43,135 nt of DNA from a virus, in the IMG/VR virus record IMGVR_UViG_3300043466_001332, positions 1-43,135 of that record; one strand, 5' to 3'. This document shows, piece after piece, positions 24,663 through 29,305 of this stretch (position 1 is its first letter; the number at the start of each line of letters is the position of its first letter). Below the pieces are notes generated by a model. That model did no database searches, had not been told where the DNA came from, and saw nothing but the letters and a program-made list of their open reading frames with translations. A program made the translations under genes and the position numbers.

Positions 24663-25365
24663 CGTAAGAGCCTTCGAGTAGCTTGGTGAAAGAGCTGTCC
24701 CGCATGAAAAAATCGAACCCGGCGCGCCAGCCGCTGGCGTTAGCGCCGGTCAGGAACGGCGAGGCGCGGGCGCGGGTCATGGCGCGGCGCCAGTCGGCAA
24801 GTGTTCCGCCGCAATCCTTCAAGCGCTGGCGCGCATGGGCTTTGCGAGACGGCGAAAGCTTGCCGACCTTCGGCCAAATGCCAGCACCAATCTCGTGATA
24901 AATTTCGACCATGGCTTCGGCCACGTCGGGATCGGCCGACGACAAAGCGATAGCTTTGTAATCTTCTTCTGTCTCTGTCTCTGTCTCTGGGGGCGATGCA
25001 TCGGCGTTCTGCAACGTTGCATCGGCGTTGCGTTTTGCCTCCCGGTGCTTCCTGGAACGTTCCGTGCTCGTGTCGCTATCGAATTGCCGCCGCCTCCACG
25101 CACAAACTCCAGAATCGTCCAGCAGGCCAACCGCGCGAAACTCAGCGAAAACCCGTTCAATGACGGCAACGGGCTCACATAGAATGGCGGCCACGCGGCG
25201 GGCTGGCAGCTCAATGCGCCCTCCGTCGTTCAAGGAGGCCGCATTTTCGAGCACAGCATGCCAGCAAGCGATCACAACAGACCGGCTTGTTTCAGCAGAA
25301 AGCGCCACCTCAGCTAGCTTCGCATCGGTCACGGTGCCCTCGTAGGCGCGATACCAGCGGCTCAT
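24472..25365 (-). CDS. Lambda O-like replication initiator
   Basis: A protein of 297 aa; the ATG at 25365 overlaps the previous stop (ATGA), and a GTG at 25374 would add three residues. The N-terminal 95 residues look like a winged helix (GRIELPARRVAAILC, VIERVFAEFRAVGLLDD). A low-complexity linker (about 105-130, ETETETEED) follows, then a conserved C-terminal part (GTLADWRRAMTRARASPFLT, WRAGFDFFMRDSSFTKLLEG). That layout is like lambda O-type initiators. The linker DNA carries repeats that could be the origin. The last 60 residues run out of frame over the next gene and have weak codon bias, so the C-terminus may be a recent extension. Confidence 0.7.
   Translation of the reverse strand: MSRWYRAYEGTVTDAKLAEVALSAETSRSVVIACWHAVLENAASLNDGGRIELPARRVAAILCEPVAVIERVFAEFRAVGLLDDSGVCAWRRRQFDSDTSTERSRKHREAKRNADATLQNADASPPETETETEEDYKAIALSSADPDVAEAMVEIYHEIGAGIWPKVGKLSPSRKAHARQRLKDCGGTLADWRRAMTRARASPFLTGANASGWRAGFDFFMRDSSFTKLLEGSYDARSPSGNYPAGRPRSGADLALDVGNELLGQGRGFDGWGADLAPSIDAERNAAGLYRVPDRMA
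24942..25029. other. Candidate origin of replication inside the initiator gene
   Basis: In order: a perfect inverted repeat ACAAAGC-GATA-GCTTTGT (24942-24959), a pyrimidine tract with TCTCTG-type 6-base repeats (24962-24989), and a 12-base direct repeat TGCATCGGCGTT at 24997-25008 and 25018-25029, 21 bases apart (two helical turns). They fall in the linker region of an O-like initiator, where lambda has its own iterons. Only two repeats are seen, so the call is tentative. Confidence 0.4.
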
Positions 25366-25892
25366 ATCGACCACCCCATTTGCTCAGGAGTGCGATCTCG
25401 CTTTTTGCGGTTGCAAGGAAAGCAGGCCGTGACGAGGTTATTAGGCTCGTGACTACCCCCCACAGACACGGGAATAACGTGATCGCATTCAAGCCTCACA
25501 CCCCGCGCGCCGCAGTAGCGGCACGTGAAATCGTCGCGTTTGAAGATATTCGCCCGAATGGCGGACCACACATTTGCAGCGGGCCTGTTCGAGCAATCTG
25601 AAGCCGGCTGATACCTCCTCCAATTTGTAAACCGGCCATCGACGATCATCCCGCGATCAGTCATTGCAGATACGATGGCATCCACGTTTTCGGGCTCGCA
25701 GCCGAAGAAGCAGGCCATGCCCTCGGCATCGTATCCAGCGATGCTGCCACGATCCTCAGCCTGCGAAGCGCGGTCCATCAGCGACCACACGACCGCAACG
25801 ACGATGCCGGGCGCCACACCGGCCCGCCGGGCAATGCCCAGCCATTTCGGATCGGTTGGTGCGCCATGCCATGAGCGAAACCAGTCGGTCAT
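25362..25892 (-). CDS. Chimera: initiator-type N-terminal domain fused to HNH endonuclease
   Basis: A protein of 176 aa. Residues 1-95 match the N-terminal winged-helix part of phage initiators (DWFRSWHGAPTDPKWLGIAR, then RGSIAGYDAEGMACFFGCEP). From about residue 107 it becomes an HNH nuclease: C124-x2-C127, the DH pair 137-138, an Asn at 151-152, and C157-x2-C160, with VSVGGSHEPNNL between. An initiator would normally continue into a linker and C-terminal domain; here that is supplied by the next gene. It may therefore be a decayed initiator captured by a homing nuclease, or a new regulator. Both ends are ATGA-coupled. Confidence 0.75.
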   Translation of the reverse strand: MTDWFRSWHGAPTDPKWLGIARRAGVAPGIVVAVVWSLMDRASQAEDRGSIAGYDAEGMACFFGCEPENVDAIVSAMTDRGMIVDGRFTNWRRYQPASDCSNRPAANVWSAIRANIFKRDDFTCRYCGARGVRLECDHVIPVSVGGSHEPNNLVTACFPCNRKKRDRTPEQMGWSI

Positions 25893-26374
25893 GACAGCCC
25901 CCGCTCTGCGTCGAGGAACGCGCCTATCACTTCCGCCGCGACTTGCGGGACGAGATACCCGACCGCCTTAAGCAGGATGGTGGGGTCATCCTTGACCACG
26001 CCGAGCATGTGGTTGCAGCCCCGGCAAAGCAGTCCGCGTACCACGCCGGTGGAGTGGTCGTGATCAACGTGGAACACGCCCTTGAACTGCTCGCTCTCCG
26101 GCTTGCTGCATATGGCGCATCGCCCATTCTGCTGGGCCAGCATGCGGTCATATTCCGCGAGGTCGACGCCATACTTGCGCTTGAGATGCCGTTCGCGCGT
26201 CTCTGCCCGCAGGGCGATATACCGCGCCTTCTCATAGTCAGGCTTGGACTTCCTCCAGGCCTTCGCGGCGGCCGTCCGGCATTCCTTGCAACGAGACATG
26301 TGTTGCCCACGGCGGCGGTCTATCCCGAACCGATCAATGGGCCTTTCGACCTGACAGCCAGTACAGGTTTTCAT
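25889..26374 (-). CDS. Recombination endonuclease VII-family protein with methyltransferase-like tail
   Basis: A protein of 161 aa; ATG at 26374 overlaps the methyltransferase stop. N-terminal Cys pairs (C4/C7, C29/C32) form a zinc knuckle. Residues about 62-141 match the endonuclease VII/HNH family: YGVDLAEYDRMLAQQNGRCA, C86-x2-C89, the active cluster HVDHDH (102-107), C117-x2-C120-N. T4 endonuclease VII resolves branched DNA, but small members in phages often act as free-standing homing-type nucleases. The final residues (VPQVAAEVIGAFLD) are closely similar to the C-terminus of the neighbouring DNA methyltransferase, so this gene looks like a chimera. Confidence 0.8.
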   Translation of the reverse strand: MKTCTGCQVERPIDRFGIDRRRGQHMSRCKECRTAAAKAWRKSKPDYEKARYIALRAETRERHLKRKYGVDLAEYDRMLAQQNGRCAICSKPESEQFKGVFHVDHDHSTGVVRGLLCRGCNHMLGVVKDDPTILLKAVGYLVPQVAAEVIGAFLDAERGLS

Positions 26375-27408
26375 GGCTGACAATCCATGTATGCGCCTAT
26401 GATTTCGGCCGCGAGCGCCGGGACGATGGCGTTGCCATAGGCGCGCAGCTTTCCCACTCGAGCGGGAATCCCATGAGCCAGGAGACGAATGCCGGGTTCA
26501 ACGCGCCGGGCCTTTCCATCGGCTCCGACGGCCCATGCGGCATCGCTCCAACCACGGCTATTGCGGCCAAGTCCGGCCCATGGTTGCGGGCCGCTTCCTT
26601 GATCGCGCCTATCGTTGATCGCACGCCCTTGTCTGCCAGCGACGCCGTGGGCGTCGGGTAGAGCGCGACCTGCCGGGGCAACTGATACAGTCGCGTCCGC
26701 GTCGAGCCGTCCGGGTTGACGGCCTGCGTCGCCATACCGGGACTGTCCTTCCAGTCGCGGGAGGATGGCGTCGTCCAGAGCGTCGCGCCGTGCATCTTGC
26801 TTGCTGCCGAGAGTCCAACCGTCACCTTGCGTCCATCGGGCATCTTCCCGGTCGGGCTCATCCCGATCGGCACACCCTTTCCACCGTTCCCGTCGCTCGC
26901 CGCCGGCGTCGGCCACAAACCACAGCCGATCTCGTCTATGGGGCGCATCGACGGCACAAGCCGGGACAACGGCCGCCCCGCAGGCGTAGCCGATGCCTTC
27001 CAGGTCAGAATGCACTCCGTCGAGCCAATCCTTTCCAACCGCTGCCGCAACCTGCTCTCCCATGACGACAGAGGGGAGGGCAGCGCGGATGAGGTCGAAG
27101 AAGACCGGCCAGAGGTGGCGTTCGTCTTTCTGCCCTTCTTGCTTACCGGCGACGGAGAAGGGCTGGCAGGGGCAGGAGCCGGTCCAGAGGGGGCGATCAT
27201 CAGGCCAGCCAGCAAGTCGAGCTGCATAGGACCATCCACCAATGCCTGCGAAGAAGTGGCATTGCGTGTATCCGGCAAGGTCGTCGGGTCGGACATCAAC
27301 AATGCTCCGTTCGTCCACGTCGCCAGGCGCGATGTGGCCCTCTGCGATCAGGTTGCGCAGCCATTGCGCGGCGTAGGGGTCGTTTTCCGAATAATAAGCT
27401 TTAGCCAT
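26371..27408 (-). CDS. DNA cytosine-5 methyltransferase
   Basis: A protein of 345 aa; ATG at 27408 has GGAGG seven bases upstream. Motifs are in order: SAM-binding HFFAGIGGWSYAARLAG (about 51-67), catalytic GSCPCQPFS with Cys81, GEQV (117-120, a variant of the usual ENV), APHRRDRLWFVAD (about 155-167), and a C-terminal RAYGNAIVPALAAEII. Between about 170 and 290 the sequence is Arg/Asp/Gly-rich and poorly conserved-looking, where a target recognition domain should be. That part is also read in another frame by the nested gene. It probably methylates phage DNA to evade restriction; no cognate restriction enzyme is seen. Confidence 0.85.
   Translation of the reverse strand: MAKAYYSENDPYAAQWLRNLIAEGHIAPGDVDERSIVDVRPDDLAGYTQCHFFAGIGGWSYAARLAGWPDDRPLWTGSCPCQPFSVAGKQEGQKDERHLWPVFFDLIRAALPSVVMGEQVAAAVGKDWLDGVHSDLEGIGYACGAAVVPACAVDAPHRRDRLWFVADAGGERRERWKGCADRDEPDREDARWTQGDGWTLGSKQDARRDALDDAILPRLEGQSRYGDAGRQPGRLDADATVSVAPAGRALPDAHGVAGRQGRAINDRRDQGSGPQPWAGLGRNSRGWSDAAWAVGADGKARRVEPGIRLLAHGIPARVGKLRAYGNAIVPALAAEIIGAYMDCQP
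26397..27296 (-). CDS. Nested overlapping gene inside the DNA methyltransferase gene
   Basis: A 299-codon frame entirely inside the methyltransferase gene on the same strand, shifted by one base. It has its own ATG (27296) and GGAG eight bases upstream. Its protein has recurring motifs: LTWKASATPAGR (97-108), LWPTPAASD, LWTTPSSRD and LYPTPTASL (three related copies), and a conserved-looking end LNPAFVSWLMGFPLEW plus TPSSRRSR. I recognise proteins of this type from phages, usually labelled hypothetical or methyltransferase-related; function is unknown. In 26641-26760 it has 35 of 39 codons ending in G/C versus 24 of 40 for the methyltransferase frame, the bias of a real gene. Confidence 0.7.
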   Translation of the reverse strand: MSDPTTLPDTRNATSSQALVDGPMQLDLLAGLMIAPSGPAPAPASPSPSPVSKKGRKTNATSGRSSSTSSALPSPLSSWESRLRQRLERIGSTECILTWKASATPAGRPLSRLVPSMRPIDEIGCGLWPTPAASDGNGGKGVPIGMSPTGKMPDGRKVTVGLSAASKMHGATLWTTPSSRDWKDSPGMATQAVNPDGSTRTRLYQLPRQVALYPTPTASLADKGVRSTIGAIKEAARNHGPDLAAIAVVGAMPHGPSEPMERPGALNPAFVSWLMGFPLEWESCAPMATPSSRRSRPKS

Positions 27409-27835
27409 TTGCTTGCCTCCCTTTCCGCCGCAGGCGAGCATATTGGTTTATGCATTGGCGGCACTGTCGCGCGCCATTATTTGTAATTCGAAGGTTAGAC
27501 CCAGCGAATGGATGGCCATTCTTGCAAGCGATCTTCGCTGCGTTTTCGGCCATTACTGTTGCGCTGCAGCGCATATTCTCTTGATGAGTGACGGCGCGAA
27601 GGTGAATCGGGTTAACGCATCCGCGAACACGGCAGATGTGATCAATCTCCATCCCGTCTGGGATAGGTCCAATGAACGCGCGATAGGAAACCCGATGGGC
27701 CTGCTCAACGCGGGCGCCATTCCAAAGAACGCCATACCCACTTGGTTGAGCAGCGCCAGACCAGTGCCAGCAATCAGTGACCCCATCTCGAAATATCTTC
27801 GTTTCTATGCGATCAAACACCGTCATCCGCGCCAT
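27401..27835 (-). CDS. HNH endonuclease
   Basis: A protein of 144 aa; ATG at 27835 overlaps the previous stop (TGATG); GTG at 27838 and ATG at 27826 are alternatives. It has an HNH core (QAHRVSYRAFIGPIPDGME, IDHICRVRGCVNPIHLRAVT) followed by a C-terminal zinc knuckle (CKNGHPF and CRQC), a design common in free-standing homing endonucleases. It ends inside the start of the methyltransferase gene, whose ATG and ribosome site it contains. Confidence 0.8.
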   Translation of the reverse strand: MARMTVFDRIETKIFRDGVTDCWHWSGAAQPSGYGVLWNGARVEQAHRVSYRAFIGPIPDGMEIDHICRVRGCVNPIHLRAVTHQENMRCSATVMAENAAKIACKNGHPFAGSNLRITNNGARQCRQCINQYARLRRKGRQANG

Positions 27836-28110
27836 CACTCCCCGCCCTCCTCAGCCATGTGCCGGGCGGCAGTGCGGATCTCCGACATGGGAGCTAGCGC
27901 CTCGCCCTGCATGAGAGCCCATATGGCCCGCTTATGGGGTATGAGCGTCAGCAGAAGGTCACGGGTCGCCTTGATAGCGGCGTCCAGTTCCTCGCCTTCA
28001 GAGCGGCGCGTGACGGCCTTCGCCTGATGCAGCCGGGTGCCGGCGCGCATCATCACCAGCGCGTCGAGGCGACCGAGCATCTGTTCCATGGTCATACGGG
28101 GGGCGCTCAT
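27835..28110 (-). CDS. Small helical protein, unknown (91 aa)
   Basis: ATGA-coupled to the AP2-HNH gene upstream and TGATG-coupled to the HNH gene downstream. It is helical (EELDAAIKATRDLLLTLIPH) with a Met-rich N-terminus and an acidic end. No known domain. Wedged between two nuclease genes, it may be an original operon member around which they inserted. Confidence 0.6.
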   Translation of the reverse strand: MSAPRMTMEQMLGRLDALVMMRAGTRLHQAKAVTRRSEGEELDAAIKATRDLLLTLIPHKRAIWALMQGEALAPMSEIRTAARHMAEEGGE

Positions 28111-28643
28111 GGGCGCACCTCAAGCTCAGCGCGGACAGGATGAAAGTCTTTGAACAGGCGACGGCTCGCGGCGACGTACGCTTCATGCGCTTCTTCGGCG
28201 GTCTCGAAATAGCCAAGGAAATGCAGAGTGCCGTTTGCCTTGATTTGTGAACGCCACTTCCGACCTTTTCGGCATGCGTGGAAATACGCGCCCTTGAGAC
28301 CGCTCCGATTATTGCTCTGGACTACCTTGTTCATTTTCTGCTGCGCCGATGTCGCCAGTCGCAGATTGCACAGGCGATTATCGCTTGGATCGCCATTGAT
28401 GTGGTCGATCTCCATGCCGTCAGGGATCGGCCCGTAAGCGTGGATCCACGCCAAACGATGCGCCCCAACTTGTCCGTATCCGCGCAGCCCAATGAGGCGA
28501 TAGCCATTTGCCGGCGACGTGCCAGCAATAGAGCCTCGCTTGACACGCGCGCACGGGCTCCAACGCCAGATAAATTCTCCGGTTTCCGAATTGTAATCGA
28601 GCCAATACCGCACGCGCTCTTGGGGTACGTTGCGAGTAATCAT
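28107..28643 (-). CDS. HNH homing endonuclease with AP2 DNA-binding domain
   Basis: A protein of 178 aa. The HNH part shows His62 (GAHRLAWIHAYGPIPDG), the DH pair 80-81 (MEIDHINGDPSDNR) and Asn93 (LCNLRLAT). Residues about 112-167 are an AP2-type three-strand DNA-binding domain (SGLKGAYFHACRKGRKWRSQ, FLGYFETAEEAHEAY). This is the classic free-standing phage HNH-AP2 homing nuclease. Both ends are ATGA overlaps, showing precise accommodation in the operon between the DnaA-like gene and a small gene. Confidence 0.85.
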   Translation of the reverse strand: MITRNVPQERVRYWLDYNSETGEFIWRWSPCARVKRGSIAGTSPANGYRLIGLRGYGQVGAHRLAWIHAYGPIPDGMEIDHINGDPSDNRLCNLRLATSAQQKMNKVVQSNNRSGLKGAYFHACRKGRKWRSQIKANGTLHFLGYFETAEEAHEAYVAASRRLFKDFHPVRAELEVRP

Positions 28644-29305
28644 TCCGTCACTCCCAGCGCCGCCTTGATGGCCTCAATATCAGCGATCCACGATTCATCG
28701 CCGGCCGCGACAAGAGCCTCCACCTTCTGAAACCCGTGGACGATTGACGAATGGTCCCGGCCACCGAGACGCATGGCGATCTGAGGGAACGAACTCTGCG
28801 TGTGCATCTTCATGACGTACCCCGCGAGATGACGGGCGCGGACGAATGAGGCTCGATTGCAGCGCGAGACGGCTTGGCTGGGCGTAAGGCCCATATATGC
28901 GCTAGCAGCCGCCAGCACTTCCTTGCGCGTGAGCGGACGGGTAATGATGAGCCAGTCACGTTCGGTCGGCAGATGGCAGTCATGAATGGCTTCGCTGACA
29001 TCGACAACAGTTTCCGGGTCGCGGATTGTGCGCTTGCATTTTACCACAACAGGCTCCGGGACGACGATATATTCACGCGAGACAACCGGATTCTGTGGAT
29101 GACGCGGCATGCCAGGATTCAACCGAGCGCGCACATCGGCGTAATGCTTGAGAAGGTCAGTCGGCACATTCTGGTTGTCTTTGTCGACAGCAACGCGGCG
29201 CAGCGGCATGGGGCTAGCAACCTTCGCCATGCGCGCGCGATCATGCGCAGCGGTGCCATAGACGCGGGCGGCGGGAACGTCAGAGGGGTAATCGTTCAGG
29301 TACAT
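28640..29305 (-). CDS. Protein with DnaA domain IV-like DNA-binding domain
   Basis: A protein of 221 aa. The C-terminal 90 residues resemble the origin-binding domain of bacterial DnaA: ARHLAGYVMKMHTQSSFPQI, then the key loop GGRDHSSIVHGFQKVEAL (DnaA has GGRDHTTV). The N-terminal 125 residues do not show an AAA+ ATPase. It could bind DnaA boxes on host or phage DNA, either recruiting the host replication machinery or blocking host initiation. ATG at 29305 has GGAG eight bases upstream. The AP2-HNH gene follows with ATGA. Confidence 0.8.
   Translation of the reverse strand: MYLNDYPSDVPAARVYGTAAHDRARMAKVASPMPLRRVAVDKDNQNVPTDLLKHYADVRARLNPGMPRHPQNPVVSREYIVVPEPVVVKCKRTIRDPETVVDVSEAIHDCHLPTERDWLIITRPLTRKEVLAAASAYMGLTPSQAVSRCNRASFVRARHLAGYVMKMHTQSSFPQIAMRLGGRDHSSIVHGFQKVEALVAAGDESWIADIEAIKAALGVTE

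Follow-up and report, generated by a model that had tools for sequence, protein, structure and literature searches.

In the original paper on the C5-cytosine DNA methyltransferase M.EcoHK31I, the gene of the small subunit is reportedly located inside the gene of the large subunit, in another frame. The enzyme is comprised of two polypeptides, of which the large subunit has motifs I-VIII and X and the small subunit motif IX; it recognises YGGCCR (Lee, Kam & Shaw 1995, as cited in PMC3404938), and its predicted target-recognition domain (TRD) is assigned to the large subunit in the part of PMC3404938 dealing with this enzyme. It is referred to as naturally split in a passage of PMC3439449. Another two-polypeptide C5 enzyme, M.AquI (CYCGRG), has a small subunit with motifs IX and X and a distal variable region, according to PMC3404938.

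In the current analysis we have studied a viral DNA of 43,135 nucleotides (IMG/VR record IMGVR_UViG_3300043466_001332, referred to here as the window), in which a gene encoding a C5 methyltransferase (M) holds a second, nested frame (N). The arrangement is like that of M.EcoHK31I in having motifs I-VIII and X in M and motif IX in N, a likeness drawn from the published layout, and also, if the nesting there is as it is said to be, in having a small-subunit gene in another frame of the large-subunit gene. It is unlike M.EcoHK31I in that selection and model confidence here point to the nested protein as the probable place of the recognition region, and in that the system of the window is phage-borne, with no restriction enzyme seen nearby. 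With M.AquI it shares a C5 enzyme split over two polypeptides with motif IX in the smaller one; unlike the simple front/back split of M.AquI, motif X remains here in M (found in 42 of 45 M proteins) and not in N (3 of 91).

The nested layout is of a known kind that, as far as we have found, has so far been described for one bacterial enzyme. No paper on nested methyltransferase genes of phages was found in the open-access literature. The PHROG families phrog_1008 and phrog_363 are the families of N and M respectively; both are labelled 'DNA methyltransferase', and the labels are silent on nesting or two subunits. The 'Mte8-like' gene inside the 'C-specific methylase' gene of K1ind2 and gp63 of Paenibacillus phage Lily ('g62 internal gene') have the same +1 nesting and are annotated singly, without function or family. 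Judged from the sequences, three aspects appear to be new: the arrangement is obligatory across a broad phage family, in every relative examined; the VIII-IX region is selected in the nested frame, whereas the literature predicted the TRD in the large subunit; and the motifs of M have the order II-III-I-IV.

Position and surroundings of the two frames

The features of the locus are collected in Table 1. The whole of N is held in the +1 frame of M, whose own start is the ATG at 27441 or the next in-frame ATG, at 27408. The sequence 5' of the N start reads CGGAGCATTGTTG-ATG.

Table 1. Features of the nested methyltransferase locus in the window
Feature	Position	Strand	Remarks
N, nested gene, 299 aa/codons	26397..27296	(-)	ATG at 27296, stop at 26397; phrog_1008 E 3e-32; dN/dS (see text)
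N ribosome-binding site GGAG	27305..27308	(-)	overlaps M codons; family consensus cGgagcATtgnnGATG
N start ATG	27294..27296	(-)	Asp codon GAT + G of following M codon; +1 stop depletion starts here
N residues 1-70, leader	27087..27296	(-)	segments B0-B2; shares its DNA with M motifs I and IV; AF2 confidence low
N residues 71-118, helix and beta-hairpin (predicted)	26943..27086	(-)	AF2; N ratios 0.18-0.36 (B3-B4)
N residues 119-263, W/Y-x-TP modules and RDWKDSPGM stretch, proposed target-recognition region	26508..26942	(-)	strong constraint in N frame, M frame nearly neutral
N residues 264-283 GALNPAFVSWLMGFPLEWES, motif IX-like	26448..26507	(-)	hhalign and PSSM; just before and over start of M motif X region
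M, C5-cytosine DNA methyltransferase, proposed large subunit	26371..27441	(-)	PF00145 E 4e-17; phrog_363 E 4e-82; AF2 match to M.HhaI, Z 16.1
M motif I (HFFAGIGG)	27235..27258	(-)	after motif II-III block
M motif IV, catalytic Cys (PCQPFS)	27154..27171	(-)	
M residues 189-284 (344-aa numbering), predicted disordered spacer instead of folded recognition domain	26554..26841	(-)	AF2 pLDDT; segment C2 without constraint in M frame
M motif X (KLRAYGNAIVPALA)	26410..26451	(-)	

An earlier note, made from the letters of this DNA, had described a 299-codon frame inside the methyltransferase gene, on the same strand and shifted by one, with its own ATG and GGAG site. The coordinates are confirmed exactly and both signals are present, as are the organised motifs listed there, namely LTWK (residue 97), WPTP/WTTP/YPTP (128, 174, 213) and LNPAFVSWLMGFP (266). 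Its hand count of G/C-ending codons in 26641-26760, 35 of 39 in N against 24 of 40 in M, is exact. Over the whole ORF the GC3 is 0.77 in the N frame versus 0.64 in the M frame; the values are 0.84 and 0.61 for N residues 115-225, and 0.67 in both frames alike for N residues 1-70.

M scores 63 bits against PF00145, the curated cut-off of which is 22. No family above cut-off has been assigned to N in Pfam, NCBIfam or PADLOC, PF00145 has no match at E 0.1 to N or to any of 96 relatives of N, and a PDB sequence search with the N profile gave no match. An identity of N as a wax-ester synthase was rejected, the match (E 0.04) being far under the cut-off of that family.

Phage replication genes are among the neighbours of N and M in the window, and the methyltransferase is surrounded (25362-28643) by three genes for HNH endonucleases and one for endonuclease VII. 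A phage protein with the DnaA C-terminal DNA-binding domain (PF08299, E 1.5e-14) and no PHROG match is encoded at 28640-29305. No restriction enzyme was recognised among the scanned neighbours in the window, or among the 25 Pfam families listed for the neighbours of cellular N-M loci, in which a ResIII helicase domain occurs once. N6/N4 methyltransferase domains are found in 8 of 76 neighbour proteins of the cellular loci, among those listed.

Coding evidence and selection in the nested frame

Stop codons were counted in 79 unique M genes fetched through M motifs alone, with the expectation taken from shuffling of synonymous codons. Between motifs I and X, 11 stops were counted in the +1 frame, where 229 are expected, and 815 in the +2 frame, where 794 are expected; the region is fully open in the +1 frame of 72 of the 79 genes and in the +2 frame of none. 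For the gene of the window alone the shuffling gives P = 0.04 for openness of the +1 frame, so the case for N rests on the family.

The depletion of stops sets in at a conserved SD-ATG. With codons numbered from motif I, the +1 stops upstream of codon -10 are at or above expectation (320 against 253), and after it they are nearly absent (9 against 275). An ATG with an open frame is present at the N start in 139 of 147 loci, 124 of which have a site like the Shine-Dalgarno sequence. The Asp codon that gives the AT of this ATG is GAT in 87% of the cases versus 40% elsewhere in the same genes, a bias for which the P value is indicative only, as the loci are related.

A 316-codon LAGLIDADG intein is found in the PCQ catalytic motif, between C and Q, of an M homologue (L085:1284-3848 (+)). 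Such an intein can splice solely in the M frame, and N is open throughout it, with no stops in the +1 frame where 3.1 are expected (P = 0.006).

Selection was followed in 51 disjoint, frame-neutral blastn pairs of 72-98.5% identity. When mismatches at position 3 of M codons are divided by those at position 1, the M-only 5' part has a ratio of 3.8 and the catalytic motifs one of 2.1; for the middle the ratio is 0.41, and for the end 0.79. The slow position in mid-gene is M3, which is position 2 of the N codons. In an overlap-aware dN/dS, in which each change is counted by its effect in both frames, the catalytic motifs give 0.42 for N and 0.06 for M, and the middle gives 0.10 (0.06-0.15) for N and 0.44 (0.27-0.63) for M, the aligned middle pieces being its better conserved parts, the SS counts small and the pairs disjoint and not phylogenetically independent.

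A finer map reveals that N is unconstrained from its start until about 50 codons before motif VIII, that the next 50 codons are constrained in both frames, and that from there N is constrained and M neutral; motifs IX and X are constrained in both frames and the tail of N is free. Over residues 1-70 of N (segments B0-B2) the N frame is kept open, but its amino acids are under little constraint, if any. The middle of M (segment C2) has no constraint (NN/SN 2.85, NS/SS 1.16), and the N frame is tightest at this place, with 0.05-0.11.

By these sequence criteria N is a genuine nested protein-coding gene, as had been proposed in the earlier note, and the proposal is borne out by the purifying selection, the stop depletion and the conserved start. 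The comparison of dN/dS in both frames suggested there places N under purifying selection, with the mid-gene value of 0.10 (0.06-0.15).

Division of the motifs and occurrence of the pair

The region 27235-27405 of M and its counterparts in relatives contain a block, AYYSENDPYAAQWLRNLI..DVDERSI, which aligns to motifs II-III of ordinary enzymes yet precedes motif I; motifs IV-VIII are alignable to ordinary C5 enzymes. An AF2 model of M from 45 sequences is mostly confident for residues 1-176 and the C-terminus and matches the large domain of M.HhaI over 174 residues by VIA-align, the structural alignment beginning at M.HhaI residue 34. The middle of the model, about residues 189-284, has pLDDT values mostly of 32-43, and those of residues 200-284 are all below 50.

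Motif IX was sought with a profile built from 23 ordinary C5 enzymes, and was found in just 1 of 45 M proteins. Of 91 N proteins, 74 have their best site at LNPxxxxWLMGxP, and 39 of the 91 exceed the 95% level of shuffled sequences; the N of the window scores 7.8 bits. Comparison of N with ordinary C5 enzymes by hhalign gave a single alignment, N 261-287, which is exactly motif IX (E 0.034, probability 1.5%). The match of N to motif IX is specific in location and weak in score. By profiles and structure model, M keeps motifs I-VIII and X and is without a folded recognition domain or motif IX; the latter is in N, along with the VIII-IX sequence. As far as the motifs can be read, the two proteins together have every member of the C5 set, each a single time.

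The number of W-x-TP units per N protein ranges from 0 to 8, with a median spacing of 37 residues. Carriers of the DWKD module, in loci partly chosen for it, share 69% identity in the module and 42% in their catalytic parts, and this suggests that the recognition modules of N may be exchangeable. At L051:2829-3890 the DWKD module is in the M frame and N reads another sequence there, as if paired indels had swapped the frames.

For N, AF2 gave a poor model from 91 sequences (pLDDT 61, pTM 0.30). Its better parts are a helix at 75-90, strands at 96-103 and 109-116, and helices at 268-288; the helix and hairpin of 75-116 coincide with the onset of constraint in N and the helices of 268-288 with motif IX. 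A Foldseek search with the N model gave no match below E 0.001, the best being cyanase at E 0.34, and because the model is poor this negative result says little.

A tblastn search with N identified 192 phage records, including epsilon15, K1ind2, BcepC6B and phages of Rhodobacter, Klebsiella, Edwardsiella and Paenibacillus. Profile searches in all frames of IMG/VR, GTDB-genome and phage loci gave 207 placements of N, duplicates included, each in the +1 frame of an M homologue and none stand-alone; the one remaining profile match is a chimeric reading inside the M of L051. N is also present in all the 89 loci that were retrieved through M rather than N. The partners of N comprise differing M types: besides that of the window there are canonical ones, which occur in phages of low GC such as Lily (43% GC) and Lc-Nu (45%) and likewise have N in the +1 frame.

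No stand-alone gene for N was found in viral, cellular, phage and plasmid collections, among the tblastn hits opened, though distant stand-alone relatives could escape two of the profile scans, which used the single peptide pattern DWKD[ST]PG. Methyltransferases of the same subfamily without N, sought as controls, were not found either. Their place was taken by the M-only 5' part and by ordinary bacterial C5 enzymes retrieved with PF00145; the latter lack N, and their +1 frame has 5-40 stops. It had earlier been proposed to look for homologues outside methyltransferase genes. None were found, all 207 placements being nested; this outcome suggests that N and M form one unit, and N as a gene is not refuted by it.

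Annotation of these loci is uneven (L003, L005, L007, L339, L341): epsilon15 has M only, W5_chr3 N only, K1ind2 and Lily both, and Riah neither.

The proposed enzyme and its alternatives

Taking sequence, models and the analogy with M.EcoHK31I together, we propose, with a probability of roughly 0.78, that N and M, whose genes overlie each other, belong to a single C5-cytosine DNA methyltransferase as its small and large subunits respectively. M as the large subunit would supply the catalytic, AdoMet-binding domain with motifs I-VIII and X. N would be translated from its own SD-ATG within the M gene, its first 70 or so residues being an unconstrained leader, and would supply the small domain, comprising motif IX and the VIII-IX sequence, where ordinary C5 enzymes hold the target-recognition domain. 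The rest of N would fold on M as the missing small domain and complete the DNA-binding cleft, and the two would associate into an active enzyme that recognises its target through N and methylates it, in the way association has been reported for the naturally split M.EcoHK31I.

N could instead be a second subunit that gives only motif IX and contacts, with the TRD in the middle of M, as predicted for M.EcoHK31I. The assignment to the large subunit in the M.EcoHK31I part of PMC3404938 and the openness of the middle of M in every locus agree with this, but we hold it to be unlikely, given that this stretch of M is unconstrained and disordered in AF2, at the place where the N frame is tightest. 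It is still less likely that N acts apart from the methyltransferase, in a role such as anti-restriction or anti-defence, and is merely overprinted on its gene: although its strong constraint, its separate start and the lack of a Pfam or PADLOC family would suit such a role, N was never met without M, the sample covering M types that differ considerably, it holds the very motif absent from M, and an independent function should have stand-alone copies.

We see a slim chance that ribosomes translating M shift into the N frame, so that a fused M-N protein is made and no separate N. Strong selection on N does start only about 50 codons before motif VIII, and a product of the form M(I-VIII)-N(VIII-IX)-M(X) would resemble the canonical enzyme; against it, N is stop-free from the conserved SD-ATG upstream of motif I, over some 60-70 unconstrained codons that frameshifting would not need, and is open even across the 316-codon intein. 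The reading of N as a by-product, whose conservation and openness follow from the M protein sequence and high GC, has some appeal for residues 1-70, which look so in amino-acid terms, and for the window alone with its P = 0.04. It is refuted, barring systematic error, by the position ratio (0.41 in mid-gene against 3.8 in the M-only part), by the +1 stops, which are depleted while the +2 stops are at expectation, and by the low-GC phages (43-45%) that keep N open, and we regard its chance as negligible.

The proposal of two subunits also bears on the functions considered in the earlier note. A 'methyltransferase subunit' fits, motif IX being in N and absent from M, while an 'anti-restriction partner' as a separate activity finds no support. 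To leave the function as unknown is too weak a statement, because a two-subunit C5 enzyme with the same motif division, M.EcoHK31I, is described in the part of PMC3404938 devoted to it. To judge from its context, the enzyme of this phage is probably an orphan; since no restriction enzyme was recognised among the scanned neighbours, its likely use is to mark the DNA of the phage and so protect it from restriction by the host.

If the two-subunit proposal is true, the annotation of many C5 methyltransferases of phages covers half of an enzyme. Entries in databases may show M, N, both or neither, and cloning of an annotated gene with the other frame altered, as by codon optimisation, would therefore give a dead enzyme. 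With a deep and obligatory overlap on one strand, and with constraint that passes from one frame to the other along the gene, the pair would be a good test bed for the evolution of overlapping genes. The split of M.EcoHK31I would become testable on hundreds of natural variants, including the question of which subunit reads the DNA. In a broader reading, for which we consider the odds to be even, a large phage-wide class of C5 enzymes has its recognition subunit overprinted on the catalytic subunit; units of about 37 residues with W-x-TP would be gained, lost and exchanged in the nested frame, the catalytic frame beneath would be tolerated as a disordered neutral linker, and enzymes of the window's type would have the motif order II-III-I-IV. 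If this is so, target specificity in these phages evolves in a frame that gene callers often miss.
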